Part shown: one piece after another, positions 487-63,178 of the stretch | How the letters are laid out: each line of letters starts with the position of its first letter | Numbering within the stretch: position 1 is the first letter of the stretch | Made by a program: the position numbers and the translations under genes | From: Nostoc linckia FACHB-104 | Lineage (GTDB): Bacteria > Cyanobacteriota > Cyanobacteriia > Cyanobacteriales > Nostocaceae | Reading direction: 5' to 3' | Assembly: GCF_014696615.1 (NCBI RefSeq) | Contig: NZ_JACJQJ010000008.1 | Span: forward strand, 62,001 to 126,000 | Length of the DNA: 64,000 nt | The notes under the pieces: generated by a model | Database searches by the model: none | What the model saw: the letters and a program-made list of their open reading frames with translations, nothing else | Told to the model about the DNA's origin: nothing

Positions 487-3168
487 ATGAATTGGTATTG
501 TGCTATCAGTATTGTGGGAATATTGGGTATTTGCAATCTCACATTTGCACGCACCTGTGATGCTCAGATTGCAGCAGATGGTACTTTACCTACAATAGTT
601 AATTCTAGCGATCATCTGAATTTCACGATTAGTGGCGGTAGCCAAGTTGGAGATAATCTATTTCATAGTTTTAACCAATTTTCTGTACCAACTGGTGGTT
701 CTGCCAATTTTAATCATAATTTCTTGATTAAAAATATTATTAGTCGTGTTACTGGTATTGAACCTTCCTTGATTGATGGCAGAATTCGTACTCTTGGCAA
801 GGCCAATCTCTTCTTAATTAATCCTAATGGAATTATCTTTGGCTCTAAATCAAAATTAGATATTGGTGGTTCATTTTTTGCCACAACAGCCAACAGTATA
901 AAATTTGCTGATGGTAAAGAATTTAATACTACTACTGATACAAATCAGCCTTTACTAACTGTCAGTTTACCTATCGGATTACAGTATGGTAAATCATCAC
1001 CTATTGAAGTGAATGGAGCTAATCTTACAGTTCCCAAAAATCAAACACTGGCTTTAATCGGTGGTGATGTGACTATCAATAAAAGTAACTTAATTGCAAA
1101 TAGCGGACATATTGAATTAGGTGGAGTAGCAGGTTCAGGTATAGTTGGGCTTTCATTAATAGGAAGCCAGCCGCAATTTAGTTTTCCTAATGATTTGGCG
1201 AGAGCTAATGTATTAATTAATAATAATGCTTTGGTAACAACTACTGGGAGTGGAGGCGGTAGTATCCAACTAACAGGAAAGCAGTTAACTATTGAAAACT
1301 CGCGTGTATCTACTTCTACGCTAGGCGCAATTGCAGGCGCAAATATAATTTTAAATGCTTCAGATGCTGTTATCGTTACCAGCGATCGCACTGATAAAAG
1401 ATTTATCGATGGATTGTTTGCGGAAAATGATGGTAGTGGCGCTAGCTTAGGAATCACCATCAATACTAATAAACTTCAGGTTGAGGGCGAAGCTAGAATA
1501 TCTACAGTCACTTCATCTAACTCCTTAGGAAAAGGAGGAGATATAACCATTAATGCTACGGATGCAATTGAACTCAGTGGTGTTGACGCAAGGGACGAAA
1601 AGTCTTTCACTACTGGTTTAGTAACAGATATTTATGGTAGTGGATCTGGGGGAAATTTAACTGTTAATACAACAAAACTAACTGTTAAAAACGGAGCGCA
1701 ACTATCCGCAGCTACCTTTAGTGATGCAAAAGGTGGAAACTTAACAGTCAATGCCAAAAATGCTGTAGAACTATTGGGTGTTTCACCTTCTGATATTGTA
1801 GCAAGTGGTTTGTATACAGCAGTTCAAGAAGAAAGTAGCGGACAAGCAGGAGATTTAATAGTTAATACTGGACATCTTATTATCAGCGATGGAGCACAAA
1901 TTTTTTCTGGTACCCTGAGCATAGGGAATGGTGGAAACATAATTATTAATGCAAGTGATTATGTCAACTTAACAGGGGTTGCACCTATTACTAAATATTT
2001 CGGTGGTGTGTTTAGTGCTGGAGGTTTTGATACTCAAGGTAATCCTGCTGAAGGAAATGCAGGAAATTTAACAATTAATACTAACGATTTAATAGTTCAA
2101 AATGGAGCCAAAATTAGTGTTGGAACGCAGGGTTTGGGTAAGGTCGGCACAATGACTCTTAACGCCACCAACTTGATTCAGTTATTGGGTAAAAGCTCTT
2201 CTGAGAATGAGCAATTAGATCCTTCAACCGATTTAGGGCTCCAATTTAGCAGTCTATTTGCCAATGTCCTAAATAGTAATAATAGGAACGATGCTGGCAA
2301 CATAGATATTAATACAGATAAATTCTTAGTTCAAGCAGGAGCTAGGGTAAGCGTTGATAATGAAGGATTGGGAAAAGGTGGCAACATTAATATTCAAGCT
2401 AACTCAATCTTGCTCGATAATTTCGGTAATTTTCAACAGAATGCAGGCGGAATTCAAGCTACAACTAAATCGGGCGAAGGTGGCAATATCAATTTACAAA
2501 TAAAAGATATTTTGTTAATGCGTAATGGCAGTAAAATTACTACTGATGCTACAGCTGGTAATGGAAATGGTGGCAACATAACTATTAGTGCCAATTTATT
2601 AGCATCTGCTGAAAATAGTGACATTACAGCTAATGCCATTCAAGGTCAAGGCGGAAATGTTCAAATTACAACTCAAGGTATCTTTGGGATTGAATTTCGT
2701 CCGCAACTAACTCCTCAAAGCGATATTACAGCTAGTTCTCAGTTTGGCCTAAATGGTGCTGTAGAAATTAAAACTCTGGCAGTTGATCCTGGCAAAGGAA
2801 TTGTGGTATTACCAGTACAGCCAAATGATGCTTCATCATTAATCACTCAAGGTTGTGGACAAAATAAATCTAGTGACTCTAGTCGCTTTATTGTGACTGG
2901 ACGGGGTGGCTTACCGCAAAATCCAGAGGTAGCTTTGGGGAGCGATACAGTTTTAGAAGATATTCAAACAGTTCCTATTGTGGCAAAGCGCGATCGCTCT
3001 TTAGTGACTGTCACTCCTATAAATTTACCATTGCAGACTGCCGATGAGATTGTAGAAGCTCAAGGACTGATAATTACTCCCCAAGGAGAAATATTATTAA
3101 CAGCACAAGCACCAGCTACAACTCCTCATAGTTCTGGACTCAATGCAACTAGCTGTTCTAGTAATTAG
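487..3168 (+). CDS. TpsA1: two-partner-secretion exoprotein with FHA-type N-terminal domain (divergent, solitary copy)
   Basis: The frame is open from a TTG at 394, but I choose the ATG at 487 because it begins a clean signal peptide (MNWYCAISIVGILG, ending near CDAQ) and leaves the TGGGAA-like box of this family (CGGGAA, GGGAA at 438-442) outside the gene, 44 nt upstream. The product is about 893 residues: signal peptide, TPS secretion domain with the NPNGI motif (roughly residues 30-170), then Gly/Asn-rich beta-helix repeats of the GGN-I-hydrophobic type to about residue 780. The C-terminus is homologous to, but clearly diverged from, that of the array copies: it has GCGQNKS, a FIVTGRGGLPQNP block and a last cysteine three residues from the end, but lacks the SDRTWSD-RDISAF block. 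Expected role: secreted or surface-anchored adhesin exported by a TpsB pore, the only visible one being at 11223-12989. It is separated from the array by the YcaO locus and ssrA. Confidence 0.85.
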   Translation: MNWYCAISIVGILGICNLTFARTCDAQIAADGTLPTIVNSSDHLNFTISGGSQVGDNLFHSFNQFSVPTGGSANFNHNFLIKNIISRVTGIEPSLIDGRIRTLGKANLFLINPNGIIFGSKSKLDIGGSFFATTANSIKFADGKEFNTTTDTNQPLLTVSLPIGLQYGKSSPIEVNGANLTVPKNQTLALIGGDVTINKSNLIANSGHIELGGVAGSGIVGLSLIGSQPQFSFPNDLARANVLINNNALVTTTGSGGGSIQLTGKQLTIENSRVSTSTLGAIAGANIILNASDAVIVTSDRTDKRFIDGLFAENDGSGASLGITINTNKLQVEGEARISTVTSSNSLGKGGDITINATDAIELSGVDARDEKSFTTGLVTDIYGSGSGGNLTVNTTKLTVKNGAQLSAATFSDAKGGNLTVNAKNAVELLGVSPSDIVASGLYTAVQEESSGQAGDLIVNTGHLIISDGAQIFSGTLSIGNGGNIIINASDYVNLTGVAPITKYFGGVFSAGGFDTQGNPAEGNAGNLTINTNDLIVQNGAKISVGTQGLGKVGTMTLNATNLIQLLGKSSSENEQLDPSTDLGLQFSSLFANVLNSNNRNDAGNIDINTDKFLVQAGARVSVDNEGLGKGGNINIQANSILLDNFGNFQQNAGGIQATTKSGEGGNINLQIKDILLMRNGSKITTDATAGNGNGGNITISANLLASAENSDITANAIQGQGGNVQITTQGIFGIEFRPQLTPQSDITASSQFGLNGAVEIKTLAVDPGKGIVVLPVQPNDASSLITQGCGQNKSSDSSRFIVTGRGGLPQNPEVALGSDTVLEDIQTVPIVAKRDRSLVTVTPINLPLQTADEIVEAQGLIITPQGEILLTAQAPATTPHSSGLNATSCSSN

Positions 3169-3788: not shown

Positions 3789-4328
3789 ATGGATGGTAAC
3801 CCTCAGAATTTGAGCGAGGCAGAGAGCTTGATTGAGGATTTAAACGATGAACAATTAGCGGCTTGTTTTGGTGGCTGTGATATTCAGGTTACTACTGGTG
3901 ACAATGATGTCGCACAAGTGCCCTTATATGAACTGCCCCTATTAGGAGAAACCAAGATCAAAATTACTTTTTTAGGAATCTATTACGATCCTAATGGCTC
4001 ACAACGCTATAGAAGCGATCGCAATGTGAAAGAAGCTGTAGGTGAGGCTGATGTCCACAGTATTCTTCAGGGTATTGCCAGTTTACCAATTACCTCCTGG
4101 CAATACAAAGACCAAGGTGAAACAATCCGCCATATTGGCCCGATGGCTCAGGACTTTGCAGCCACCTTCAAGGTTGGGGAGAGCGATCGCACTATCAATG
4201 TTGTAGATGCTAATGGCGTAGCTTTGGCAGCTATTCAAGCACTTTATCAAGTAATTCAAAAGCAAGATTCTCAAATTAATGAACTGCAAACACAGTTACT
4301 TGAGTTAAAGCAACAAATTATTCAGTAG
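3789..4328 (+). CDS. Precursor-like protein: double-glycine leader, short core and C-terminal S74-type chaperone/autoprotease domain (copy 1)
   Basis: The 179-residue product has three parts. Residues 1-29 form an acidic leader of the double-glycine bacteriocin type (EDLNDEQLAACFGG). Residues 30-76 begin with Cys and end in YDPNGSQRYRS. From residue 76 on lies a domain matching the Peptidase_S74 intramolecular chaperone of phage tail proteins: SDRNVKEAV, a tryptophan/tyrosine strand (SWQYKDQG), HIGPMAQDF, and a terminal heptad coiled coil (residues ~147-179). In phage endosialidases this domain trimerises, then cuts itself off at the Ser of the SD motif using a Ser-Lys dyad; here Ser76 and Lys81 keep the same spacing. 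Inference: cleavage at GG and at Ser76 would release a ~47-residue peptide. The YcaO protein downstream and the paralogue at 4503 support a RiPP-precursor role. It could instead be a secreted S74 protein unrelated to RiPPs. Confidence 0.7.
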   Translation: MDGNPQNLSEAESLIEDLNDEQLAACFGGCDIQVTTGDNDVAQVPLYELPLLGETKIKITFLGIYYDPNGSQRYRSDRNVKEAVGEADVHSILQGIASLPITSWQYKDQGETIRHIGPMAQDFAATFKVGESDRTINVVDANGVALAAIQALYQVIQKQDSQINELQTQLLELKQQIIQ

Positions 4329-4502
4329 TTCCATTGATTTTTTCGGATTTCTCAGTAATATACCAGCATTTTTTTGATTTCAATAAATACTTTAAAAAAA
4401 CAGAATTATAGCTTTGTTTGACATCTGGATAAATAAATTAGTAAAAAATAGAGAATATTGAATTTATTTAACAAACAGTTAATTTATGGGAGCTAAGAAA
4501 TT

Positions 4503-5024
4503 ATGGATAGCAAAAATCAAGAATCGCTGATTCAGGAGAGTTTGATTGCAGAATTAACTGATACTGATTTAGCTAATTGTGTTGGTGGTTGCGGCTACAT
4601 TAATCCAGGCGATCGCAAAATTATTGCTAACGATGGTGTCATGAACGCTCCCGGACTCGAACACAATCCAAATATGGAGTATGATCCCAATGGTTCTCTC
4701 CGCTACAGAAGCGATCGCCATCTCAAAGAATCTATAGCTGAGGTCGATATCTACGCCATTCTTAAAGGTATCGCTAATTTACCGATTAGTACCTGGCAAT
4801 ACAAAGACCAAGGTGAAACAATTCGCCGTATTGGCCCGATGGCTCAAGACTTTGCAGCTACTTTCAACCTAGGAGAGAGCGATCGCACTATCAACGTTGT
4901 AGATGCTCATGGTGTAGCTTTTGCCGCGATTCAAGCACTTTACCATGTAGTGCAACAGCAAGAGTCTCAAATCAATGAATTGCAAACACAATTACTTGAG
5001 TTAAAGCAACAACAGCAATTTTAA
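4503..5024 (+). CDS. Precursor-like protein: double-glycine leader, short core and C-terminal S74-type domain (copy 2)
   Basis: This 173-residue paralogue of the 3789-4328 product lies 174 bases after it and has a better ribosome binding site (GGGAG about 12 nt before ATG). The leader is again exactly 29 residues to the double glycine (AELTDTDLANCVGG) and the core again starts with Cys30. The core (residues 30-70, CGYINPGDRKI...) differs almost completely from that of copy 1 apart from the last stretch YDPNGSLRYRS, whereas the S74 domain (SDRHLKES, Ser70, Lys75, GPMAQDFAATF) and coiled coil are nearly identical. A constant leader, variable core and constant tail is the usual signature of modified-peptide precursors. 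The core has few Ser/Thr/Cys, so which residues the cyclodehydratase would act on is unclear. Confidence 0.7.
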   Translation: MDSKNQESLIQESLIAELTDTDLANCVGGCGYINPGDRKIIANDGVMNAPGLEHNPNMEYDPNGSLRYRSDRHLKESIAEVDIYAILKGIANLPISTWQYKDQGETIRRIGPMAQDFAATFNLGESDRTINVVDAHGVAFAAIQALYHVVQQQESQINELQTQLLELKQQQQF

Positions 5025-5110
5025 ATTGTTTGTGAACATCTTTATGATGTTTTTTCTCGGCTACTCTGCAGATAGGCCTTCTTTGCTCAAATTTGAGATA
5101 GGGAAGATAT

Positions 5111-5236
5111 CAATACTGCTCGGTTAAGGATTTTCAACTCGGAATTTAGTTTGGGGAAATGGTCAAAGGGTAAGGATTATAGGTTTTTTCTTGCCCCTTT
5201 TCCCCTTCCCCTTTTGCCTTTAACCGACAAGTATTG
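5111..5236. mobile_element. MITE-like element of 126 bp with terminal inverted repeats and 10-bp target duplication
   Basis: The left end CAATACTGCTCGGTTAA (5111-5127) and right end TTAACCGACAAGTATTG (5220-5236) are inverted repeats (CAATACT and CGGTTAA match exactly, with a 3-base mismatch block between). Directly outside both ends stands the same 10-mer GGGAAGATAT (5101-5110 and 5237-5246), as expected of a target-site duplication. The interior is pyrimidine-rich on its right side (CCCCTTTTCCCC) and has no coding frame. A related left end lies at 9658-9710. It sits between the second precursor and the mini-ORF before the YcaO gene, so it may separate transcription of the two. Confidence 0.7.
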
Positions 5237-5505
5237 GGGAAGATATAACTCCTAGGGTAGCCATTCCGTATCTTTACTGTTCTGAATCATCATTGCTGCT
5301 GAATGACATATCTGAAATTGCTGAAATAATTACATAAGTGATTTTATTTATTCAGTAATATCCTAGTCAATATTTAAGTTTAAATAAAGTCCAAAAAAAT
5401 CATTTTGGACAAACACTACAAATATTTTTAAAATTTGTGCTAATTATTAGAGATTAGCAAAGCATATTTTTAGATAATAATCAAATTACTGCTTTTTTAA
5501 ATATT

Positions 5506-5583
5506 ATGTCTATGAACAATCAAGAAACAGTCACCAGAGCAAGTTTAATTAAAAAATTATTTAACTACCATAATTATGCTTAG
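5506..5583 (+). CDS. Mini-ORF resembling a truncated RiPP leader, overlapping the cyclodehydratase start
   Basis: A 25-codon frame starts at ATG 5506 (or ATG 5512) and ends at TAG 5581, overlapping the ATG of the next gene (5576) by eight bases in another frame. From its second Met it reads MNNQETVTRASLIKKL and then ends with FNYHNYA. This aligns with the leaders of the two precursor-like proteins (KNQESLIQESLIAEL), sharing N-Q-E, S-L-I and the final Leu. It lacks the double glycine, the core and the S74 domain. It may be a remnant of a third precursor or a leader peptide that couples translation of the cyclodehydratase. The similarity is short and could be chance. Confidence 0.45.
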   Translation: MSMNNQETVTRASLIKKLFNYHNYA

Positions 5584-7816
5584 TCAGCCGAAGTTTAAAG
5601 CACACTTCCATGTGGAAATATCTCCTCCTAAAACTGTATTCCTATTAAGTGAGAAAGGGCATTTCGTGTTAAATGGGCGTTTATATTGCCTACTAGCATC
5701 ACTACTCAACGGGCTTTACTCTGTGGCTGAAATAACTCAACAGCTGCAAGGACAAGCCACCGCTAATGAGATTATCTATGCACTACAACAGCTAGAACGT
5801 AAAGGATATATTACTAACGCAAATAATCTACCACTGAGAGAATCGGCTTTTTGGGAACTGCTGAATCAAGATACTCGCGTTGTCAGCCAACGCTTCCAAG
5901 AATCGAAAGTTAGCATTACCACATTTGGTAGTGTCACCTCTGAACCATTGCATAACATCTTGGAATCCCTCAACATTCCCATTGGCGATTTTGGTAAGTT
6001 TGCTGTTGTTGTCACAGATGATTATCTCCAGCCTGGTTTAGCAAGTTTTAACCGAGAAGCTTTACATGACAAGCGTTCTTGGTTGCTAGTCAAGCCAGTC
6101 GGTGCTGTAATTTGGATTGGCCCCATCTTTAAACCTGGACATACTGGATGTTGGGAATGTTTAGCACAACGTCTGCGGATGAATCGTGAGGTTGAGTCTT
6201 TTTTACAAGCGCAACAACAAACTCTCAACTCGTTTCCAATTTCCCGTGCGGCTTTACCTTCAACTGTCAACACTGGGTTAAATCTCGCAGCTACAGAAAT
6301 TGCTAAATGGTTAAGTAACTCAGAACAGCATCCTTTAGAAGGAACTTTGTTAAGTTTTGATTTGCTTAATCTCAACTTGCAACGCCATACTTTGGTTCGC
6401 CGTCCGCAATGTCATTGCTGTGGTGAGCCGACTGATTTAAGTCAACGCCAACTTCAACCATTGGTGTTAAATAGCCTACCCAAGCAGTTGAGTCATGATG
6501 ACGGGTATCGCAATTATTTGGCTGAAAAGGCTTTGCAAAAATACGAACATCACATCAGTCCCATTACGGGAATTATCAGCAGTTTATTTCAACCTTTTCC
6601 CCAGAATGATTTGATTCATGCTTATGTTGTAGAGCATAGTTTTCCTAAAGAAGGTAGACAGTTAGAAGATTTACGCCAGACAGCGCGCCTGAAAAGCTTT
6701 GGTAAAGGAAAAACGGCCGCCCAAGCGAAAATGAGTGCCGTTGGGGAAGCAATTGAGCGCTACTGTGGAACCTATACGGGAGAAGAACCAAGGATAAAAG
6801 CTGCTTACAGCAATCTTGGCGCACAAGCTATTCATCCTTACGACTGTATGCACTACAGCACAAATCAATATTGCGATCGCCAAACTTGGAATCAGCAACA
6901 TGAGATTATTCAATGGGTACCTGTTCCCTTTGATGAAAATCAAGAGATTGAATGGACTCCCATTTGGTCACTCAGCAATCAGCAATTCAAATATCTGCCC
7001 ACAGCATATTGTTATTATGGCTATCCCTTAGCTGAAGATGCTTGCTTTTGTTATGCAGATACCAATGGAACTGCTGCGGGAACTTGTAAAGAAGAAGCTA
7101 TTCTCCAAGGATTTATGGAGTTGGTAGAGCGAGATGCAGTAGCAATTTGGTGGTACAACCGTCTCCCAAGACCAGCTGTTGATTTAAATAGTTTTGATGA
7201 GCCTTATCTAAATAAATTAAAAAACTATTATCAATTGATTGGACGCGATTTTTGGGTATTAGACCTAACTAGTGATTTAAATATTCCCACCTTTGCTGCT
7301 ATTTCTCGACGGATTAATCACCAGCCAGAAGATATTCTTTTTGGCTTTGGTACCCACTTTCATCCCCAAGTAGCCCTATTACGTGCTGTCACGGAAATGA
7401 ATCAAATGATATTTCTTTCTAATGGGGCTAATCCAAATTCTTCTGCCAAATTTACTCGTCAGGATATGCAAAATTGGTGCCAAACAGCAACATTAAACAA
7501 CCAAGTTTATCTTGCTCCCGATGCCAATGTAATTCCTAAAGTTTACGGAGACTATCCTGTTTACCACAGTCGGGACTTGCGAGCAGATGTGTTGGCTTGT
7601 GTTGATTTAGCAGCTAAACATGGATTAGAAATATTAGTTCTCGAGCAAACAAGTCCAGATATTGGGATGCCTGTTGTGAAGGTTGTAGTTCCTGGGTTAC
7701 GCCATTTTTGGGCACAGTTTGCGCCAGGTAGGCTTTACGATGTACCCGTGCAACTAGGATGGTTAAAAGCAAAATTAACAGAAGACCAACTAAATCCAAT
7801 TCCTATGTTTCTTTAG
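5576..7816 (+). CDS. TOMM-type cyclodehydratase: leader-binding/E1-like domain fused to YcaO
   Basis: The 746-residue product has the fused C-D architecture of azoline-forming RiPP enzymes, which turn Cys/Ser/Thr of a precursor into thiazolines or oxazolines using ATP. Residues ~1-90 look like a peptide-binding winged-helix region (QLERKGYI). Residues ~100-330 are the E1-like part, with the zinc cysteines C192-W-E-C195 and C279-H-C-C282. Residues ~335-746 are YcaO: SFGKGKTAAQAK and GEAIERYCGTY near 375-400, EEAILQGFMELVERD near 505-520 (the conserved E/Q/E/D metal-ATP residues), and the C-terminus NPIPMFL, resembling the proline-rich tail of cyclodehydratases though not a full PxPxP. The start overlaps the mini-ORF 5506-5583. 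No dehydrogenase, C39 transporter or other maturation gene is visible nearby. Substrates are inferred from proximity to be the products at 3789-5024. Confidence 0.88.
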   Translation: MLSQPKFKAHFHVEISPPKTVFLLSEKGHFVLNGRLYCLLASLLNGLYSVAEITQQLQGQATANEIIYALQQLERKGYITNANNLPLRESAFWELLNQDTRVVSQRFQESKVSITTFGSVTSEPLHNILESLNIPIGDFGKFAVVVTDDYLQPGLASFNREALHDKRSWLLVKPVGAVIWIGPIFKPGHTGCWECLAQRLRMNREVESFLQAQQQTLNSFPISRAALPSTVNTGLNLAATEIAKWLSNSEQHPLEGTLLSFDLLNLNLQRHTLVRRPQCHCCGEPTDLSQRQLQPLVLNSLPKQLSHDDGYRNYLAEKALQKYEHHISPITGIISSLFQPFPQNDLIHAYVVEHSFPKEGRQLEDLRQTARLKSFGKGKTAAQAKMSAVGEAIERYCGTYTGEEPRIKAAYSNLGAQAIHPYDCMHYSTNQYCDRQTWNQQHEIIQWVPVPFDENQEIEWTPIWSLSNQQFKYLPTAYCYYGYPLAEDACFCYADTNGTAAGTCKEEAILQGFMELVERDAVAIWWYNRLPRPAVDLNSFDEPYLNKLKNYYQLIGRDFWVLDLTSDLNIPTFAAISRRINHQPEDILFGFGTHFHPQVALLRAVTEMNQMIFLSNGANPNSSAKFTRQDMQNWCQTATLNNQVYLAPDANVIPKVYGDYPVYHSRDLRADVLACVDLAAKHGLEILVLEQTSPDIGMPVVKVVVPGLRHFWAQFAPGRLYDVPVQLGWLKAKLTEDQLNPIPMFL

Positions 7817-7879: not shown

Positions 7880-8830
7880 ATGGAATCCATCGATACTAGT
7901 TGTAAAGCTGGTATAATTCAAGATAATCAAAAGCCTAAAAAACATCATAAATCTGACAGATTCTCAGATAATTATTTTAAATTTATCGATTATTTTCCTG
8001 ATTTAATACTCATCACCACACGCAGTCAAGGTTATTGTGTAGAGATTAATCAGTCATTTCTCAATGTAACGGGCTACAGTCGCGAGAATGTTGTTGGACA
8101 CCCGATTACAGTATTAGACATGGGATTGAATACAGCAACATACTCAAAAATCTACAAAAAATTAATAAATCAACAAACTGTTGAAAATTTAGAAATTGAA
8201 TTTTGTTTAAAAAATGGTGACAAGCGCATAGGTTTACTATCAGTCAAACTTTTAGAATGGCAAGGAAAAACTTATTTGCTAAATATCATTCGTGATATTA
8301 CAGAGCGTAAAGCAATTGAAGAGAATTTACGCCGAATTGCGATGCATGATCCGCTAACAGGATTACCAAATCGAGCTTACTTTATGCAGCAATTAGATTA
8401 TGTAATTGCATGTAAGCAATATTATGATAACTATTTTTATTCTATATTATTTCTAGATTTGGACGATTTTAAGGCAATTAATGATAACTTTGGTCATGAT
8501 ACTGGAGATAAATTTTTAATTGAAATTAGCAAAAAGCTAAAAGCTAAACTGCGATGGGGGGATTTTATTGCTCGTCTTGGTGGAGATGAATTTGTAATTT
8601 TGTTGGAAGATATTAAAGATTTTCGTGGTGCATCTCGGATTGCTAATCAAGTAATTGCGGCTCTTAAACAACCTGTTTTAGTTAATGGTCATCTTCTTTC
8701 ATGTTCAGTCAGTATTGGCATATCAACCATCTCAGCAGATGATAAATTACCTGAACAATTATTACGCAAGGCAGATGCGGCCATGTATCAGGCAAAAGCA
8801 TTTGGCAAGAGTCGTTACCATATTAGTTAA
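7880..8830 (+). CDS. PAS-GGDEF diguanylate cyclase
   Basis: The 316-residue protein has no membrane segment. A PAS sensor domain with its PAC extension occupies roughly residues 30-150 (YFPDLILITTRSQGYCVEIN, then LNIIRDITERKAIEENLRRI). The GGDEF domain follows, opening with the usual HDPLTGLPNR and carrying an intact active site GGDEF at 234-238. Five residues before it stands RWGD, the RxxD inhibitory site, so product inhibition by c-di-GMP is expected. Predicted activity: 2 GTP to c-di-GMP, cytoplasmic. It begins 63 bases after the YcaO gene on the same strand, so they could share a transcript, but a functional link is not shown. What the PAS domain binds is unknown. Confidence 0.9.
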   Translation: MESIDTSCKAGIIQDNQKPKKHHKSDRFSDNYFKFIDYFPDLILITTRSQGYCVEINQSFLNVTGYSRENVVGHPITVLDMGLNTATYSKIYKKLINQQTVENLEIEFCLKNGDKRIGLLSVKLLEWQGKTYLLNIIRDITERKAIEENLRRIAMHDPLTGLPNRAYFMQQLDYVIACKQYYDNYFYSILFLDLDDFKAINDNFGHDTGDKFLIEISKKLKAKLRWGDFIARLGGDEFVILLEDIKDFRGASRIANQVIAALKQPVLVNGHLLSCSVSIGISTISADDKLPEQLLRKADAAMYQAKAFGKSRYHIS

Positions 8831-10592: not shown

Positions 10593-11222
10593 ATGTGCTT
10601 CATACTTCAATTATAATACGCGCTTTGGGAAATGTGTGTTGAGACTAATAATTTTCTGAGCAAATATTATTTAGTATAATTAATAACTTTATTTTCTACG
10701 TGGTTTACCCATGTTTAGCCTACAACACTTTTGTAAAATGGTTTTTATTTTTTGAGGTGGGAAGTTAAACTTTCGGAAATTACGTATAATCTTGCTATTT
10801 AAATACAAAACTACAGTATAATTTCGGCTTACTAATGCGCTTGAGCGTCAGTATGATATGACCAGACATATATCAATAGGTACATTAAAGTAGTCATTAA
10901 AGCTTAGGTACGCTCTTGGGTTTAATCAGAGTGCATGAAAACATTTTGTCAATATTCAAGAGATTATGGCGGATAGCCATAATTTTAAATTGTTTGCCCT
11001 CCTCTTCTTAATTTACTTCCCTATTCCCCAGTCCCCATTCGTGAATTTGGTGTTCCGGTCAGTTGGATACAGAAACAATTTGCAGCATCTTTAGATATTA
11101 CTTACTTTAGGATTCAGTTTTGGGAAATGGGCTTGCTAAGCTTCAATCGCTAACTTATACAAACGATTTAAGCGTTGTTAAAGGAGGTACACAAACACAA
11201 GGGAAAATTATTACAAAATATT
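10593..11222. other. Intergenic region between ssrA and tpsB, with promoter-like sequences
   Basis: About 630 bases without a convincing gene. It holds the ssrA promoter on its left edge, two TATAAT boxes on the plus strand (10785-10790 and 10817-10822), and the family box TGGGAA at 11121-11126. An AAAGGAGGT at 11180-11188 looks like a strong ribosome binding site but has no in-frame start at the right distance. The tpsB frame is open upstream to a TTG at 11175. Confidence 0.4.
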
Positions 11223-12989
11223 ATGCAGAATCAATGTGTTTTTTTCAACCAGCAAATATTAACATCAAATTTTTTATTAAAACCTCTAACTTTCAGCATT
11301 GTTATAGCAGCAGTGTTGGGTAACTGTCAGAATACCTATGCCCAAACAGCTAATCCTCAAACCTTACCACCTGGCAGAGTAGAAGAAGTTCCGGTGACAC
11401 CGTTACCTGCGGATGTGCTACCGCAGCCACCAGAAACCAATCCCATACTACCCCCGCTACAATTACCAGATCAGTCCACTCCCTCTCAAGACGATCCCAA
11501 TGCTAAGTTTCGAGTAGATCGCATTGAAGTGGTAGGAAGTACAGTTTTCAAACCAGAACAGTTTGCCTCGATTACAGCTCCTTTTGTGGGTAAGGAACTC
11601 ACTTTTGCCGAGTTGTTACAAATCAAAGACGCAATTACCAAGCTGTACACTGATAACGGTTATGTCACCACAGGCGCATTGATTACACCGCAGACAGTAG
11701 AAGCTGGGGTAATCAAAATTCAGGTAATCGAAGGTAGTCTCCAGGAAATCAAGATTAGTGGTAATCGGCGATTGCGTAGTCAATATATTCGCGATCGCAT
11801 TCGACTGGGTGCAGGAACTCCCTTGAATGTGCCGCGCTTAATCGAAAAGTTGCAACTACTCCGCCTCGATCCACGCATTCAAAACCTCTCAGCTGAGTTA
11901 CAGATGGGGGTAACTCCGGGAAGCAATATATTACAAGTCGAAGTCCAAGAAGCCGACACCTTCAGCCTCACAGCATCTATAGATAATGGGCGATCGCCTA
12001 GTGTGGGTAGTTTCCGTCGGGGTGTGGATCTACAAGAAGCCAATTTACTCGGTTTAGGCGACACTCTCAGTATCGGATACGCCAATACCGATGGTAGTAA
12101 TACAGTCAATCTGAATTACACCCTCCCAATTAATGCCCATAATGGGACACTCTCTTTCGGCTTTAACAAAGGTTGGAATCGGGTAATTGAAGAACCATTC
12201 AGCGTTCTTGATATTCAATCGAATACCACATCTTACGAATTTGGCTATCGACAACCATTAATACAAAAACCTTCCCAGGAATTAGCGGTTGGGCTATCGT
12301 TCTCGCGTCAAGAAAGCCAAACTGAGTTAGGTATCGATAATATTGGGCCGTTTCGACTTTCACCCGGCGCAGATGCTCAAGGAAGAACCAATATTTCTGC
12401 CTTCCGCTTTTTTCAGGAATATACCCAACGTACTACCAGCCAAGTTTTTGCCGCGCGATCGCAATTTAGTTTAGGTGTAGATTGGTTTGGTGCCAATGTT
12501 AATGCAGATGAACCAGATAGCCGCTTTTTCTCTTGGCGAGGACAAGCGCAGTGGGTACGACAGTTAGCACCAGACACCCTATTTTTAGCGAGGGGCGATT
12601 TACAACTAGCAGCAGATTCCCTCGTACCGCTAGAGCAATTTGGTCTTGGTGGACAATTAAGTGTACGAGGCTATCGCCAAGATACATTGCTGACAGATAA
12701 TGGAATGCTATTCTCAGCAGAATTTCGGTTACCGATTTTGCGTGCCCCAAAAATAGGGGGAGTACTACAGCTGACACCCTTCATTGATGTAGGTAAAGGT
12801 TGGAATGTTAAGGGTAGCGATCCCTCACCAAGTACTTTGGTAGGTACTGGTGTAGGGCTGCTATGGAAGCAAAACAATAACTTCTCAGCCCGTATAGATT
12901 GGGGTATTCCCTTGACATCTGTAGAAGGGGAAAAGCGTAGTCTCCAAGAAAATGGTTTGTATTTCTCAGTGCAATATTCGCCATTTTGA
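11223..12989 (+). CDS. TpsB: outer-membrane pore of two-partner secretion (ShlB/FhaC/HecB family)
   Basis: Starting at ATG 11223 gives 588 residues with a signal peptide ending near NTYAQ; the frame is open from TTG 11175, which would add 16 charged residues before it, so I prefer the ATG. A proline-rich linker (residues ~45-92) leads into two POTRA domains (~95-170 and ~172-245: FRVDRIEVVGSTVF, IKISGNRRLRSQYI), which bind the TPS domain of the partner in the periplasm. The rest is a 16-strand barrel, with the VRGY loop-6 motif at 481-484 and a C-terminal strand ending VQYSPF. The role is ATP-independent export of TpsA proteins across the outer membrane. It is the only tpsB in the window, 122 bases before the first array gene on the same strand, so it presumably serves many TpsA partners. 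Confidence 0.93.
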   Translation: MQNQCVFFNQQILTSNFLLKPLTFSIVIAAVLGNCQNTYAQTANPQTLPPGRVEEVPVTPLPADVLPQPPETNPILPPLQLPDQSTPSQDDPNAKFRVDRIEVVGSTVFKPEQFASITAPFVGKELTFAELLQIKDAITKLYTDNGYVTTGALITPQTVEAGVIKIQVIEGSLQEIKISGNRRLRSQYIRDRIRLGAGTPLNVPRLIEKLQLLRLDPRIQNLSAELQMGVTPGSNILQVEVQEADTFSLTASIDNGRSPSVGSFRRGVDLQEANLLGLGDTLSIGYANTDGSNTVNLNYTLPINAHNGTLSFGFNKGWNRVIEEPFSVLDIQSNTTSYEFGYRQPLIQKPSQELAVGLSFSRQESQTELGIDNIGPFRLSPGADAQGRTNISAFRFFQEYTQRTTSQVFAARSQFSLGVDWFGANVNADEPDSRFFSWRGQAQWVRQLAPDTLFLARGDLQLAADSLVPLEQFGLGGQLSVRGYRQDTLLTDNGMLFSAEFRLPILRAPKIGGVLQLTPFIDVGKGWNVKGSDPSPSTLVGTGVGLLWKQNNNFSARIDWGIPLTSVEGEKRSLQENGLYFSVQYSPF

Positions 12990-52947: not shown

Positions 52948-54057
52948 ATGAAACGTCAATATTTAGCTAGTACATTGAGCGTCGTCGCTCTGATGGCTAG
53001 TACCACCTGGTCAAGTGCTTATGCGTTGACATTTACCCCACCTCCGAACAATGGTGCGCCTAGCCAAGCCACTGGAGGGGCTTCTCGCGGTAGTTTATTT
53101 ACTCCTCCTGCTTCGGGAAAGGGTGCGCCTAGCCAAGCCACAGGAGGAGCTTCTCGCGGTAGCTTATTTACTCCTACAGCCGGAAAAGGTGCGCCTAGAC
53201 AAGCGACAGGAGGGGCTTCTCGCGGTAGTTTATTCACTCCTACATCTGGAAAAGGAACGCCTAGACAAGCGACAGGAGGGGCTTCTCGCGGTAGCTTATT
53301 TACTCCTACAGCGGGAAAAGGAACGCCTAGACAAGCGACAGGAGGGGCTTCTCGCGGTAGCTTATTTACTCCTACAGCGGGAAAAGGAACGCCTAGACAA
53401 GCATCAGGAGGGGCTTCTCGCGGTGACTTGTTTACACCAGTTTCTGGGAAAGGTGCACCACAACAAGCAGCAGGAGGGGCTTCTCGCGTTGGTACATACG
53501 AATTAAATCCTTCAACGGTAGCAGCAACAGGGCCAGCCGCACTCATTGCGCTCTTACCCGAAAGCTTTTATGGCACAACATTGTCAGAACATCCGACAAT
53601 TCTGGTCTATATTCCAGCTTCCAATGCCGTAGAAGCTGTATTCAGTCTCAAGGATGAAGCGGGTAATACACAGCATCAAATGACTATTCCTGTTGCTGGT
53701 AAATCTGGAGTAATTGCTGTGCAATTGCCAGCAGATGCACCTGCTTTAGCTGTGAACAAAAATTACCATTGGTTTTTGGCGCTGAAAGTGGATGGAGAAC
53801 TTAGCCCCAGTACACCTTACGTCGATGGTTGGATTCAACGCATCCAGCCCAATGCGGAATTAGCAACAGCGATGCAGGATCAAGATGCTTTGAAGCGGGC
53901 AACAGCTTTAGGTAAAAACGGGGTTTGGTATGACTGTGTAGCCACACTTGCTATGTTACACACCGATCAACCAACTAATGTGAACCTCAGCAAGCAATGG
54001 GAAGAACTCCTCTCCTCAGTCAGCTTGAAAGAGTTGGCAACGCTTCCGTTCAATTAA
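52948..54057 (+). CDS. DUF928 protein with seven-fold expanded signature repeat
   Basis: 369 residues. Signal peptide MKRQYLASTLSVVALMASTT to AYA; GAGGTAAAGATA gives a good ribosome binding site. Residues ~33-190 consist of tandem copies of GAPSQATGGASRGSLFTP, 22 residues each. The C-terminal half (~190-369) is the DUF928 domain I recognise: ALLPESFYGTTLSEHPTILV, a beta-sandwich-like middle (PVAGKSGVIAVQLP), NKNYHWFLALKVDG and WYDCVATLAML. DUF928 proteins are of unknown function and, as I recall, often sit beside CHAT and CHASE2 genes in cyanobacteria; typical members have a single Gly/Arg-rich motif where this one has seven. It is probably exported. Confidence 0.85.
   Translation: MKRQYLASTLSVVALMASTTWSSAYALTFTPPPNNGAPSQATGGASRGSLFTPPASGKGAPSQATGGASRGSLFTPTAGKGAPRQATGGASRGSLFTPTSGKGTPRQATGGASRGSLFTPTAGKGTPRQATGGASRGSLFTPTAGKGTPRQASGGASRGDLFTPVSGKGAPQQAAGGASRVGTYELNPSTVAATGPAALIALLPESFYGTTLSEHPTILVYIPASNAVEAVFSLKDEAGNTQHQMTIPVAGKSGVIAVQLPADAPALAVNKNYHWFLALKVDGELSPSTPYVDGWIQRIQPNAELATAMQDQDALKRATALGKNGVWYDCVATLAMLHTDQPTNVNLSKQWEELLSSVSLKELATLPFN
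53050..53505 (+). repeat. In-frame 66-bp tandem repeat inside the DUF928 gene
   Basis: Seven copies of the GGASR core are spaced by 66 bases (one spacing is 69). The central copies (about 53230-53420) are almost identical at base level, for example GGGGCTTCTCGCGGTAGCTT recurs, while the outer copies have drifted. This pattern indicates recent expansion by slippage or unequal exchange from the middle. Confidence 0.92.
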
Positions 54058-58508: not shown

Positions 58509-59360
58509 TTATCCCATCACAGGCAAGCTAACTTTTTTTGATAACCAATCATACCAAGTTTCTAACCCAGCACCTGTAGTAGAAGAAACTTGAAAAATCT
58601 GAATTTCTGGATTTACTTGACGTGCATATTCTAGGCATTTTTGCACATCAAATTGCACATAAGGCAATAAATCGGTTTTAGTGAGAATCATCACCTCACT
58701 AGCGCGAAACATATGCGGATATTTAATTGGTTTATCTTCTCCTTCAGTGACAGAGAGAATGACAACTTTTGCTTGTTCGCCTAAATCAAATAATGCTGGA
58801 CAAACTAAGTTACCCACATTTTCAATCATCACCACTGAGTTTAAAGGTGGGTTGAGTTGTTGTAAACCTCTTTCGATCATCGAAGCATCTAAATGACAGC
58901 CAGTACCTGTATTTATTTGGACAACTTTACAACCAGTTTCTTGAATTTTTCTGGCATCATTAGTTGTTTCTTGATCGCCTTCAATAACGCTAATATTTAA
59001 TTTAGATTTTAAATCATTAATAGTGCGAGTTAATAGCGTTGTTTTCCCTGCGCCAGGAGAACTCATTAAATTTAAGGCAAGGATATTTCTGCCTTTAAAC
59101 CAGCCGCGATTTTGAGCAGCTAGCAGATTATTTTTTGCTAAAATATCTTGTTCTAAACTGATTGTAGTGCCATGCATTTTGGCATGAATCTGCGATGCTT
59201 CTTGATGATGGTCATGATTGTGAGAATGGGTAATTACAGTACCATCAGGTAAGGTGTGAGTGTGATTGTCATCATGATGATGGTGATGATTTACTTCACC
59301 TGTGGCTAAATTAGTTACTTTGCTTTCTGCATCGTCAGAACAACCGCAAGTTACACACAT
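58509..59360 (-). CDS. hypB: HypB, GTPase and nickel donor for hydrogenase maturation
   Basis: 283 residues. The N-terminus has the high-affinity nickel motif CVTCGC, followed by a histidine-rich stretch (NHHHHHDDNHTH and HSHNHDHH, residues ~24-53) that can store nickel. The G domain carries the Walker A SSPGAGKTTLL (~105-116), a switch region IEGDQET, and TKTDLL for guanine recognition. HypB works with HypA to insert nickel into the [NiFe] hydrogenase large subunit. It overlaps hypA by 10 bases and is the last gene of the minus-strand cluster. Confidence 0.97.
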   Translation of the reverse strand: MCVTCGCSDDAESKVTNLATGEVNHHHHHDDNHTHTLPDGTVITHSHNHDHHQEASQIHAKMHGTTISLEQDILAKNNLLAAQNRGWFKGRNILALNLMSSPGAGKTTLLTRTINDLKSKLNISVIEGDQETTNDARKIQETGCKVVQINTGTGCHLDASMIERGLQQLNPPLNSVVMIENVGNLVCPALFDLGEQAKVVILSVTEGEDKPIKYPHMFRASEVMILTKTDLLPYVQFDVQKCLEYARQVNPEIQIFQVSSTTGAGLETWYDWLSKKVSLPVMG

Positions 59361-59692
59361 ATTTCCTCGATTTCTATTTCCTTAATTTTTAGTTCTTCAC
59401 CAGTTATTAAATTTAATTGCACGCTACCACATTCACAAATACCGAAGGGTTTATCTAAGGCAATTTTTTTACTACATTGGCGACATTCTGCCAATCCAGG
59501 AATTTCTAATATTTCTAATTTTGCGCCTTCTAGAACTGTACCTTGAGCGCAAATATCAAAACAAAAACGAATGGCATCAGGCATAATGGCTGATAACTTG
59601 CCAATTTCTAATGTTACTCTTTGGACTTTTTGACCCTGGGCGTGTTCTGCGACTATGGCAACAATATTTTGTGTAATTCCGAGTTCGTGCAT
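59351..59692 (-). CDS. hypA: HypA, nickel metallochaperone
   Basis: 113 residues, standard length. It begins MHELGITQN; His2 and Glu3 with the amino terminus form the nickel site. The zinc-binding part has CRQC and, 14 residues later, CECGS, so the second cysteine pair is CxC rather than the more usual CxxC. It lies between hypE (126-base gap) and hypB (overlap). The gap to hypE holds a GC-rich dispersed sequence (about 59727-59758). Confidence 0.96.
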   Translation of the reverse strand: MHELGITQNIVAIVAEHAQGQKVQRVTLEIGKLSAIMPDAIRFCFDICAQGTVLEGAKLEILEIPGLAECRQCSKKIALDKPFGICECGSVQLNLITGEELKIKEIEIEEICV

Positions 59693-59818
59693 AGATTTAG
59701 GAAGGAAAATTAGAACCGCCGAGATAGACGCGGAGCGGCTACCCGCAGGGTACGCTGATAAAAGCAGATAATTTATTGATGTTGATTGGCAAGTGATGTC
59801 AAGAATAGTTAGTAAAAA

Positions 59819-60922
59819 TTAACAAATTCGAGGTAATTGATCGCCTACTAACATATCAACAATTCGTTCGGCATTGAAAATAGTTTTTAATAAAACTACA
59901 CCTGAAGGTGAGGGGATAGCTTCACCAATAATTGAAGCATCTTTGCCTGCTGGGTGAGATTGCATGGCTGCTAAAACTGTTTCTGCTTGTTGTCCGGGTA
60001 CTACTACTACTAACTTACCTTCGTTGGCAAGATATAAGGGATCTAAACCAAGAAGTTCGCAAACTCCTTTGACTTCTTCCCGCACTGGAATAGATTTTTC
60101 ATAGAGGCGGATTCCCACATCCGAACTCAGGGCAAATTCGTTTAAAACTGTGGCTAAACCACCACGAGTTGCATCCCGCATTGCATGAACTTCTGGGCAA
60201 ACATTGAGGATGGTTTCTACTAAACCATGCAATGGTTGACAGTCGCTTTCAATATTAGTATCTAATGCTAATTCACCACGAGCAATTAAAATTGCTGCGC
60301 CATGATTGCCTAATTCGCCATTAATAATTATGGCATCTCCTGGTTGAATTTTATGGGCTGAAATCTCAATTCCTAGAGGAATTACACCAATACCGGCGGT
60401 ATTAATAAACAGTTTATCGGCTGCACCACGATGTACGACTTTTGTGTCACCAGTCACAATTTGAACGCCAGCTTGATTCGCGGCTGCTTTCATACTGGTA
60501 ACTACACGGCGTAAGGTTTCTACTGCTAGGCCTTCTTCTAAAATCACGCTACAGGTGAGATATAAAGGTTTTGCACCACTCACGGCTAAATCATTAATTG
60601 TGCCATTGATAGCTAATTCTCCAATATCACTACCTGGAAAAAATAAGGGATCTACAACATAGGAATCAGTGGTAAAAGCTAATCTGTCTCCCTGTTGCAT
60701 GAGATTAGCTAAGTTAAAACTAGCTTGGTCTTCTAGTTGGGAGAGAATGGGATTATCAAAACTTTGGACAAAAATATCATCTATTAAATCGCGCATGGCT
60801 TTACCACCACTACCATGTGCGAGGGTAATATGAGTATCTCTCACTTTTGGTTGGCGACGGCGAATTTTTTCAATTTTTTGAAATAGGGAATTTTGTGCTG
60901 AGTTGGTTGGTAAAACATCCAT
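59819..60922 (-). CDS. hypE: HypE, carbamoyl dehydratase of hydrogenase maturation
   Basis: 367 residues. The PurM-like fold is recognisable by ITLAHGSGGKAMRDLIDDIF, LAFTTDSYVVDPLFFPGSDI, VSGAKPLYL and DATRGGLATVLNE. The protein ends PRIC, with the terminal Cys that accepts the carbamoyl group from HypF and is dehydrated to the cyanide ligand of the active-site iron. The length is slightly above usual through an extended N-terminus (residues 1-25, basic). Confidence 0.97.
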   Translation of the reverse strand: MDVLPTNSAQNSLFQKIEKIRRRQPKVRDTHITLAHGSGGKAMRDLIDDIFVQSFDNPILSQLEDQASFNLANLMQQGDRLAFTTDSYVVDPLFFPGSDIGELAINGTINDLAVSGAKPLYLTCSVILEEGLAVETLRRVVTSMKAAANQAGVQIVTGDTKVVHRGAADKLFINTAGIGVIPLGIEISAHKIQPGDAIIINGELGNHGAAILIARGELALDTNIESDCQPLHGLVETILNVCPEVHAMRDATRGGLATVLNEFALSSDVGIRLYEKSIPVREEVKGVCELLGLDPLYLANEGKLVVVVPGQQAETVLAAMQSHPAGKDASIIGEAIPSPSGVVLLKTIFNAERIVDMLVGDQLPRIC

Positions 60923-61034
60923 GTTGAATTTTTGTAATTTATTGTTTTAGGAAATTGGCTAAGGCGGTGCGTTGCGCTACGTGACAACACACCCTACTTT
61001 TTATCTAATAAATTATTGGTGATAGTTTTAATGA

Positions 61035-61445
61035 TTATGTAGCTTGCTTGCCTTCTTTTAGCAATAATTGCGACCAAGCAACAAAAGCTAGCAGAGGAAT
61101 TGTAGCAACCGTTTCAAATAAAATTAAAGTATTCATTTTTATGGACAGTTCCCAGATTGGGGTAATTATGTATTGTCCTAAAGTTAACTGACTCATGATT
61201 ATATAAATGTACAGACATAAATAAGCAGAATTGAAAGACCTCTTAATATATTGGTAATACCCAGCTAAACCTAAGGGTGTCATAATCAACCAACAAGAAT
61301 CTGTAATTTGAGATGTGAACCAAGATGCTTTTGCATATTGATTGAATAAGATAATATTGTCCCTGTAATGCAAAATGGAAGCAACAATATTAATGCCTAC
61401 TAAACAAAGTAGCCATATTTGACGTTGATGATTATCGGTGTTCAT
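61035..61445 (-). CDS. Small four-helix membrane protein of unknown function
   Basis: 136 residues with four predicted membrane segments (around 11-22, 52-65, 74-92 and 106-127). Tyr and Trp are frequent and there is no motif I recognise. It sits between the tautomerase gene (67 bases) and hypE (112 bases) on the same strand, inside the hyp cluster. It may be a passenger of the transcript or have a role in nickel or hydrogenase physiology; nothing in the sequence decides this. Confidence 0.75.
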   Translation of the reverse strand: MNTDNHQRQIWLLCLVGINIVASILHYRDNIILFNQYAKASWFTSQITDSCWLIMTPLGLAGYYQYIKRSFNSAYLCLYIYIIMSQLTLGQYIITPIWELSIKMNTLILFETVATIPLLAFVAWSQLLLKEGKQAT

Positions 61446-61511
61446 AGAAATTCCCCTCTATGCGATCGCTATTAATATAGGGGCACAACGTTAGTAGTTA
61501 TGCCCCCTACG

Positions 61512-61727
61512 TTATCTGCCTGTTTCTGCGTGTCTACCACTATGTTTATCAGAATGTAATTGACCACCAACAGCCCAATTTTCCCGTTCATATTCGTCAA
61601 TATGAACGGTGATCCATTCTGGTTTAGTCCCTAAAGCTGAAACCAGGGCATCTGTTACGGCTTGTACTAGTTTCCGCTTTTTTTCAATTGAGTGACCTTT
61701 GGCAATTTGAACTGTAACAAATGGCAT
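61512..61727 (-). CDS. 4-oxalocrotonate tautomerase family protein
   Basis: 71 residues starting MPFVTVQIAKGHSIEKKRKL: after Met removal the catalytic Pro1 is exposed, and the basic Arg/Lys region and the helix VQAVTDALVSALG fit the 4-OT fold, which forms hexamers. The C-terminal ten residues beyond GGQLHSDKHSG are extra. Family members tautomerise or isomerise small keto acids; the substrate here is unknown. Tautomerase-like genes occur in hyp clusters of other heterocystous cyanobacteria as I recall, with no explained role. Confidence 0.85.
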   Translation of the reverse strand: MPFVTVQIAKGHSIEKKRKLVQAVTDALVSALGTKPEWITVHIDEYERENWAVGGQLHSDKHSGRHAETGR

Positions 61728-61845
61728 AAGTTTATTTTTCCTCGAGTTGGATTACTTAGGAATTACAACAGTGTTCGCCGCAATTAATCACATCTTTTGA
61801 TATTTATTGATAGATGCAAAGCAGAATCCAAAAATCTTCAATAAA

Positions 61846-61880
61846 TGGGCATTGGGCATTGGGCATCGGGCATTGGGCAT
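61846..61880. repeat. Heptamer tandem repeat (TGGGCAT x5)
   Basis: Five units of TGGGCAT, the fourth reading CGGGCAT, in the 281-base gap between hypD and the tautomerase gene. It is a short tandemly repeated sequence typical of heterocystous cyanobacteria and may interrupt the hyp transcript into two parts. Confidence 0.9.
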
Positions 61881-62008
61881 TGAAGATTGATTTTTATTGT
61901 TCTTTGTAAGCGCTGTTTATAGAGTCTCTTGCATACTGCAAAGCAGAACCCGAAGGGTAGACGCAAAGAAGAAGGTAGACAAGAAGTCTAATTTCTAGCC
62001 CTAAACCT

Positions 62009-63178
62009 CTAGCTAGCAGTCCCACAAGCGGGGAGAGGTTCTTGAGATATGTTGACCTTGGGTGTTTCTTGGGTAATGGTGGAGAGTCTGCCATATTTAT
62101 AATAAGCTGCACAAGCACCTTCGGAAGATACCATGCAAGTACCAATTGGTGTTTCTGGCGTGCAGGCTGTACCAAAAACTTTACATTGCCAAGGTTTCAA
62201 TACACCTTTGAGGATTTCTCCACATTGACAAGCTTTATGGTCAGCAACTTTCTGGTTAGGAATGCTAAATTTTTGTTCAGCATCGAATTGCGCGTATTCG
62301 GGGCGAATTTGTAAGCCAGAATAAGGTATGTCACCTAAGCCACGCCATTCAAAAGTTTCTCGCGCCATAAACACTTGATTGATAGCTTTGAGGGCGACTT
62401 GATTTCCGGCTGGCTGGACAATGCGGTTATATTGGTTTTCGACTTCACAACGATTTTCTAATAGCTGTTGCAACAGCATCCAAATCGATTGCAGAATGTC
62501 TAAGGGTTCAAAGCCGGAGACCACGATGGGTTTATGATATTGTTGGGCAATAAATTGATATGGGTCAGTACCAATTACCATGCTGACATGACCAGGGCCG
62601 ACAAAGCCATCAAGTTGCAAATCGGGGTTATCTAGTAATGCTTGCAAGGCGGGGATCACGAGGACGTGATTGCAAAACATACTAAAATTGCTGATATTTT
62701 CGGCTGCTGCTTGCAGGATAGTGAAGGCGGTACTGGGGGCCGTGGTTTCAAAGCCTAAGCCGAAAAATACGACTTCTTTGTTGGGGTTTTCTTTAGCAAT
62801 TTTTAAGCTATCTAGAGGCGAGTACACCATGCGAATATCTGCGCCTGTGGCTTTGGCTTGTAGCAAGCTGGTTCTGGAACCGGGGACTCGCATAGCATCG
62901 CCAAAGGTGGTGAAGATGACGTGAGAATTTTGGGAAATAGCGATCGCATCATCTAATCTACCTCTAGGCATGACGCATACTGGACAACCAGGGCCATGAA
63001 TCAATTCGATGGACTGAGGCAAGATGTCTTCTATCCCATACTTAAATATAGAATGGGTATGCCCGCCACAGATTTCCATGATTTTGATCGGTTTATCTAA
63101 CTGCTGGCTTAATTTGGCAATTTCGCGGTATAAGCCTTCGGCTTTGGCTGGTTCGCGGAATTCATCAACGTATTTCAT
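62009..63178 (-). CDS. hypD: HypD, iron-sulfur scaffold for Fe(CN)2CO assembly
   Basis: 389 residues. Signature blocks are CGGHTHSIFKYGI, IHGPGCPVC (redox/ligand cysteines), FFGLGFETTAPSTA, FVGPGHVSMVIG and GFEPLDIL. The C-terminal part supplies the [4Fe-4S] cysteines in ACQCGEILKG, WQCKVFGTAC and GTCMVSSEGACAAYY. With HypC it carries the iron that receives CN and CO ligands. It is 56 bases downstream of hypC. Confidence 0.97.
   Translation of the reverse strand: MKYVDEFREPAKAEGLYREIAKLSQQLDKPIKIMEICGGHTHSIFKYGIEDILPQSIELIHGPGCPVCVMPRGRLDDAIAISQNSHVIFTTFGDAMRVPGSRTSLLQAKATGADIRMVYSPLDSLKIAKENPNKEVVFFGLGFETTAPSTAFTILQAAAENISNFSMFCNHVLVIPALQALLDNPDLQLDGFVGPGHVSMVIGTDPYQFIAQQYHKPIVVSGFEPLDILQSIWMLLQQLLENRCEVENQYNRIVQPAGNQVALKAINQVFMARETFEWRGLGDIPYSGLQIRPEYAQFDAEQKFSIPNQKVADHKACQCGEILKGVLKPWQCKVFGTACTPETPIGTCMVSSEGACAAYYKYGRLSTITQETPKVNISQEPLPACGTAS

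Follow-up and report, generated by a model that had tools for sequence, protein, structure and literature searches.

Which kind of product is encoded where two short genes, each with a double-glycine leader and a C-terminal Peptidase_S74 domain, lie beside a gene for a fused E1-like/YcaO cyclodehydratase? The question is raised by a stretch of 64,000 nucleotides from Nostoc linckia FACHB-104 (contig NZ_JACJQJ010000008.1, positions 62,001 to 126,000; the whole stretch is called the window here). An earlier note on this DNA had proposed a new locus for ribosomally synthesized and post-translationally modified peptides (RiPPs). Its layout was borne out: the two precursor open reading frames (ORFs), A and B, and the YcaO ORF lie where it had placed them on one strand, each leader has 29 residues with GG as the last two, and Cys is the first residue of either following segment. 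The S74 assignment, the co-occurrence with YcaO and the double-glycine leader also hold; S74 is better seen as an optional part, and Cys30 is set aside as main ring site. The note made no mention of the (Y/L)DPNGSxR motif, of the gene upstream for TpsA1 (an exoprotein of the two-partner secretion, TPS, type) or of relatives lacking S74. The reading that we favour, and consider moderately probable, is a RiPP-type cassette in which a LynD-like YcaO enzyme would install a ring, the S74 domain would act as self-removing follower, a C39-type transporter would export the peptide and the product would have a surface role together with TpsA.

The link between precursor and YcaO is real. Twenty-two precursor loci were read, 17 with an adjacent YcaO gene (the window, L033-L045, L094, L150 and L151) and five orphans (L005 and L046-L049). 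A YcaO protein at least 70% identical occurs in 14 of the 217 genomes of the family (the next best reaches 58%), and exactly the same 14 contain the leader-type precursor, which at the sensitivity of the precursor search is found in none of the other 203. Chance neighbourhood is ruled out by this match in the same 14 of 217 genomes; it is untenable because the parts are conserved across genomes. The precursor search itself was positive in 18 family genomes, the four extra ones (G054, G113, G131 and G147) matching residues 69-170 only and lacking a GG leader; by eye, three of these proteins start with a Tat-like signal, and the fourth has 500 in-frame residues before the match. An orthologue of TpsA1 and YcaO are both adjacent in 17 of the 22 loci, and neither was found in the stretches read around the five orphans. 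S74 forms (21 proteins) are present in 12 of the 17 YcaO-linked loci and in no orphan locus. Absence of S74 precursors beside YcaO in other genomes had been named beforehand as grounds for refutation; co-occurrence was found in 14/14 family genomes and in 12/12 S74 loci read, the latter all with YcaO and TpsA1 adjacent. TpsA1 is not exclusive to the cassette, since a search with its C-terminal part at E 1e-30 finds matches in 32 of the 217 family genomes, among them the 14. One TpsA1 orthologue (G208:C13:9938-10366) has an in-frame TGA counted inside this C-terminal match. Beyond the family the full form was detected in one further genome (G219) among 388 sampled from the order, and no further genome with the full form was found among 386 sampled from the phylum. 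The cassette occurs in some filamentous cyanobacteria.

By sequence the enzyme is a heterocyclase of the cyanobactin type. It scores 277 bits with TIGR03604 (cut-off 219) and 164 bits with TIGR03882 (cut-off 37), is matched by PF02624 and PF21084, and aligns over nearly its full length with MusD, LynD and TruD, the closest solved structures (E 2.4e-225 to 1.5e-214). Its C terminus NPIPM resembles the NPTPM of LynD. A ring on Ser, Thr or Cys is therefore the natural prediction, and azoline formation on the precursor by this YcaO may be expected. No dehydrogenase was recognised near the cassette. More distant YcaO relatives (L062 and L086) have long leaders of NHLP/Nif11 look, judged by eye.

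The precursors themselves were compared in an alignment of 18 sequences, and 34 were read in total. Within the alignment the leader residues Leu14, Leu18, Asp20, Leu23, Ala24, Gly28 and Gly29 are invariant. All 34 leaders have Ile or Leu at position -15, Leu at -12 and Leu (33) or Ile (1) at -7; position -4, a weaker fit to the rule for C39 peptidases, is occupied by Cys (28), Tyr (3), Val (2) or Thr (1). For the leader of G242 the second GG of a GGG was taken as the cut. According to the excerpted parts of a review (PMC10885120), the C39 peptidase of ComA reads hydrophobic residues at -15, -12, -7 and -4, and LahT reads -12, -7 and -4. The residues found here support the view that the double-glycine leader would fit the positions read by such peptidases. 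Leader length across the precursor family varies between 28 and 48 residues, and the scanned precursors gave no NHLP or Nif11 model among hits with E up to 1.

The middle (core) segment carries a further conserved element near its end. The motif (Y/L)DPNGSxR is common to both precursors and stands right before the start of S74; its part Pro-Asn-Gly-Ser-x-Arg is invariant among the 18 aligned sequences, and all 34 precursors have the motif Ser, which follows Gly in 33 and Gln in one. Five S74 precursors contain no Cys in the core at all (precursor B of G012, G016, G017 and Tolypothrix FACHB-123, and that of G219), and in the core of B in the window Cys30 and Ser65 (4695-4697) are the sole Cys, Ser or Thr residues. 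Around the leader cut a CxGGC pattern is seen at residues 26-30, Cys being found at -4 in 28 of 34 and at +1 likewise in 28 of 34 precursors. A thiazoline at Cys30 as main site was set aside on chemical grounds, not by test: a ring there would use the carbonyl of Gly29, and the G29-C30 bond is the one that a C39 exporter would cut, which makes Cys30 awkward as an azoline site. From this conflict with the GG cut, together with the presence of the motif Ser in every precursor, we place the modification at the Ser of DPNGSxR, which with moderate confidence is the likelier ring site.

The C-terminal domain is matched by Peptidase_S74 (PF13884, curated cut-off 22 bits) with 41.1 bits in A (E 2.1e-10, residues 76-127) and 41.5 bits in B (E 1.7e-10, residues 70-121); the precursor of G219, which belongs to another family of organisms, reaches 47.6 bits. 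Pfam covers half of the domain, and PHROG tail-fibre profiles, which align by their C-terminal ends, extend the match to residues 168-176, so that the earlier assignment of residues 76-179 was fair. To call the C-terminal domains near-identical was too strong, as they share 75% identity over 118 columns, of which 14 precede the Ser. Likewise a cut before this Ser would give peptides of 46 (A) and 40 (B) residues instead of the 41-47 announced. In the 18 aligned sequences Ser76, Asp77, Arg78, Lys81, Glu82 and Tyr106 are invariant and Trp104 is nearly so. SDRxxKE opens the domain in 21 of 21 S74 precursors, and the Ser with Lys five residues on, which the earlier note had pointed out, is intact in all. 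In the consulted portions of PMC8326128, mouse MyRF is described as cut between P586 and S587, a cleavage that requires the trimer and is abolished by S587A or K592A, with Y615 and Y617 lining the cutting hole; the Ser-Lys pair is presented as a dyad common to MyRF and phage endosialidases in those of PMC3742443. Lys81, Trp104 and Tyr106 of A coincide, by our own count, with MyRF positions +5, +28 and +30. The C-terminal end of the S74 part is predicted as a long helix (block pLDDT, the predicted local confidence, about 68-83; most other regions below 50). Self-cleavage before the Ser and trimerisation would be expected from the domain family.

A PF13884 search of 243 order genomes gave 38 matches, of which 30 loci were fetched; a GG leader is present in two of them (window B and G219), absent from 26, and two were unreadable (L163, cut by a contig end, and L192). 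Thirteen of the 26 leaderless loci have at least 458 in-frame residues ahead of the match. Some short S74 proteins of relatives (L020, L021, L022 and L184; frames of 224-249 residues) have Tat-like signals by eye and no GG leader, and so represent another secreted S74 form of small size. A scan of IMG/VR with the alignment of 18 precursors found no relative; tblastn against phages yielded 17 records, all below 60% identity, and among the matches listed (8 of the 17) the alignment starts at residue 70-89. Plasmid records number 16, the best 8 of which show 39-55% identity and are mostly named tail fiber domain proteins. Recent transfer of S74 from a phage is unsupported.

Is S74 then essential for this precursor family? 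The 34 precursors comprise 21 with S74, eight short ones beside YcaO and five orphans, the leader and the motif being common to all. Short relatives beside YcaO were found in G204, G206, G208 and G095 by the family search and in G242, an Aphanothece metagenome-assembled genome (MAG), by the order search, so that S74-bearing and S74-less precursors occupy the same gene position. The orphans, also without S74, occur in five genomes of the window's genus, away from YcaO; the one in the window's own genome (L005:4963-5235, contig G000:C35) lies upstream of genes that by eye resemble those of ribosomal proteins L35/L20, and it is seen also in four other genomes of the genus. The short precursors end 4-9 residues past the motif Arg and the S74 forms reach the scissile Ser 2-5 residues past it; cutting by S74 would therefore yield near-equivalents of the short gene products. 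In G095 (a Mojavia pulchra MAG) a decayed S74 domain lies behind the stop of the short precursor (score 89, equalled in 0 of 300 shuffles), and in the other seven spans tested with shuffles no S74 remnant was found. BLAST hints of repeated visible losses in G204, G206 and G208 were dropped, since their score came mostly from DPNGSxR itself. The YcaO tree requires three gains or losses of S74, two of them forced by well-supported branches. Because S74-less relatives exist and one S74 domain has visibly decayed, S74 is an optional follower and not a defining part of the family. A different family of GG-leader peptides (LSELSPAGSELFQD...GG) was seen in L152:2534-8432 (G451), in several copies near a gene that by eye is aldo/keto-reductase-like and with no YcaO recognised.

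Ratios of nonsynonymous to synonymous substitution (dN/dS) were taken as mean dN over mean dS in eight genomes, after removal of pairs whose dS was undefined or did not exceed 0.05 (23-27 of 28 pairs kept). Group A gives 0.21 (leader), 0.55 (core) and 0.12 (S74). The pattern of a variable core is plain in group A only, and S74 is under purifying selection in both groups. Between A and B of the same genome dN is 0.12-0.21 in S74 and 0.85-1.28 in the core, and the S74 tree joins the A and B copies from the five closest genomes (99/97), pointing to exchange between them.

According to the favoured reading the LynD-like enzyme would bind the double-glycine leader and form a ring on one core residue, for which the DPNGSxR Ser (giving an oxazoline) is the likeliest candidate. 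The S74 domain would fold, trimerise via its coiled coil and cut the chain before its own Ser (between R75 and S76 in A, between R69 and S70 in B); it would be a self-removing C-terminal chaperone or follower by which the peptide is kept parked, folded or spaced until its release. An ABC exporter of the C39 type would then cut after GG and secrete the 46- or 40-residue peptide, which may work at the cell surface with the TpsA exoprotein encoded in the cassette. Since C39 exporters transport unfolded chains, S74 cutting before export is the simpler order. A more elaborate version, in which S74 joins three chains, holds the cores while YcaO forms the ring at the DPNGSxR Ser and then cuts itself off, so that a peptide that is, or once was, trimeric is delivered to a TpsA filament, appears to us possible but doubtful. 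Several results weigh against the favoured reading. The cores are poor in Cys, Ser and Thr; the family members in G204, G206, G208 and G242 have no S74, nor has any of the five orphans; and in group B selection constrains the core no less than the other parts (dN/dS 0.24 for the leader, 0.23 for the core, 0.22 for S74). A C39 exporter should not let a folded S74 trimer through, and either the cut must precede export or folding must occur outside. Such an exporter was found within five of the 17 YcaO-linked loci (L037, L038, L043, L150 and L151) and not in the other 12, the window's included; the window's genome encodes four C39 exporters at E 1e-150, the nearest, on another contig, being 76% identical to that of L043. 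A profile search of PDB sequences gave no significant match to an intramolecular chaperone autoprocessing (ICA) domain (MyRF 7dc3 at E 0.43 only). The AlphaFold models are poor (mean pLDDT 44 for the whole precursor, 52 for the S74 part) and Foldseek gave no match at E <= 0.001 in PDB or BFVD; both belong to the same list and were counted neither way.

The S74 domain could instead be a permanent trimerisation tip, core and S74 together forming a trimeric surface protein that is exported via the leader and decorated by YcaO. The other S74 proteins of the order, which look like fibre or secreted proteins (26 of 30 PF13884 loci lack a GG leader), the TpsA exoprotein adjoining 17 of 17 YcaO-linked loci and the stronger conservation of S74 than of the core in group A speak for such a tip, but the Ser-Lys dyad is intact in 21 of 21 domains, the S74-less relatives end soon after the motif, so that the upstream part can serve alone, and a folded trimer is ill-suited to a C39 exporter; we judge it rather unlikely. 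The scarcity of Cys, Ser and Thr in the cores would be explained if the S74 precursors used leader and exporter without being YcaO substrates, the enzyme acting on another peptide such as the orphan L005:4963-5235, which has the same leader and motif. That orphans occur in five genomes only, as opposed to 17 loci where YcaO adjoins a precursor, and that in G192, G193, G219 and G242 the adjacent precursor is the sole family member found, makes this quite improbable. The same scarcity could point to non-azoline chemistry of YcaO on the precursor (thioamide or amidine formation); given the fused E1 domain, the two TIGR models above cut-off and the kinship to the heterocyclases MusD, LynD and TruD, down to the LynD-like C terminus, little likelihood can be assigned to it.

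With the cyanobactin systems (LynD, TruD, MusD and PatD) the cassette shares the E1-like and YcaO parts in one chain. It differs from them by a single core per precursor (by look), the GG leader, a C39 exporter in part of the loci and the S74 follower. An LxELSDEEL-like element of the leader recalls recognition sequence I of cyanobactins; no paper with the letters of that motif was found in the library searched. Pfam scans showed no subtilisin-like protease of PatA/PatG type among 10 ORFs that span about 16 kb on the upstream side of the window's cassette, nor among the scanned neighbours, the rest of the genome being unsearched; at the other loci neither such a protease nor an oxidase was recognised beside the cassette, judged by eye from ORF starts. 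The thiazole/oxazole-modified microcins (TOMMs) with NHLP or Nif11 leaders likewise combine GG leader, fused cyclodehydratase and, in some clusters, C39 exporter, but the leaders described here comprise 28-48 residues, and the precursors scanned do not match the NHLP and Nif11 models. The follower in turn resembles the S74/ICA domains of endosialidase tail spikes and MyRF in domain family, Ser/Lys spacing and predicted coiled-coil end, and MyRF also in the aromatic pair at +28/+30. Unlike theirs, it stands behind a leader-core part of 70-90 residues and not behind a long fibre or a transcription factor, and no triple beta-helix was recognised upstream. By the sequence criteria applied the cassette belongs with the S74 family and with TOMM clusters and, as far as looked, not with a cyanobactin cluster.

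A follower is also removed during maturation in bottromycin-type systems, there by a separate amidohydrolase (excerpts of PMC10885120), whereas the follower described here is predicted to cut itself. In the RiPP cases covered by the literature, as far as the available portions go, separate enzymes remove leaders and followers. No paper joining S74/ICA domains with RiPPs, or YcaO with peptidase S74, was found in the library searched, which is thin in subscription journals, and the accessible portions of PMC4603692, PMC4663559 and PMC3140520 yielded nothing on this combination; the pairing of an S74-bearing precursor with a YcaO enzyme looks undescribed. If the proposal is true, a trimerising, self-cutting chaperone as follower would add a new route by which modified peptides mature, and the tail-spike domain would have another use in cells apart from MyRF. 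As a tool, it might serve as a fusion tag that brings a peptide together for modification and is then lost with no protease needed. Since precursors with and without S74 occur naturally in close relatives, what the domain does can be tested directly.

Table 1. Features of the cassette and its neighbours, in positions of the window.
Feature	Position	Strand	Evidence or remark
TpsA1, TPS-secretion-domain exoprotein (filamentous haemagglutinin type)	487..3168	+	PF05860, E 2.3e-56
Precursor A, 179 aa	3789..4328	+	ORF list, alignment
Leader of A, residues 1-29, ends GG; Ile/Leu/Leu at -15/-12/-7	3789..3875	+	
Middle (core) segment of A, residues 30-75, 46 aa, ends DPNGSQRYR	3876..4013	+	
Ser71 of the DPNGSxR motif in A, putative heterocyclisation site	3999..4001	+	
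S74/ICA domain of A, residues 76-179; predicted scissile Ser76, Lys81, Trp104, Tyr106, predicted C-terminal coiled coil	4014..4325	+	PF13884, PHROG tail fibre, alignment, MyRF comparison
Precursor B, 173 aa	4503..5024	+	ORF list, alignment
Leader of B, residues 1-29, ends GG	4503..4589	+	
Middle (core) segment of B, residues 30-69, 40 aa	4590..4709	+	
S74/ICA domain of B, residues 70-173; predicted scissile Ser70, Lys75	4710..5021	+	PF13884, alignment
Fused E1-like/YcaO cyclodehydratase of the LynD/TruD/MusD kind, winged-helix N terminus	5576..7816	+	TIGR03604, TIGR03882, PF02624, PF21084
PAS-GGDEF diguanylate cyclase	7880..8830	+	after YcaO in the 8 genus genomes searched (L033-L039 and the window)
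TpsB-type outer-membrane transporter, candidate exporter of TpsA1	11175..12989	+	PF03865, PF08479

The mechanical ORF of TpsA1 opens at 394 with TTG, and the starts of its orthologues suggest the ATG given in Table 1. From 394 to 49918 the window holds an array of 14 genes for TPS-type exoproteins by look, 800-980 residues long (a hidden Markov model was applied to the first only), with the one TpsB-type transporter among them. Just upstream of TpsA1 lies a methyltransferase-like gene (L004:15478-16200), seen by ORF start also in G015 (L034:5350-6123). In G219 a CHASE2-cyclase gene (L150:3679-5580) stands beside YcaO in place of PAS-GGDEF, both being second-messenger enzymes. Farther downstream in the window are a protein in which a GGASRG(S/D)LFTP-type repeat occurs six times (52948-54057) and, on the minus strand (58509-63178), hydrogenase maturation-like genes, assigned as hypB, hypA, hypE and hypD by look and not by a profile model.

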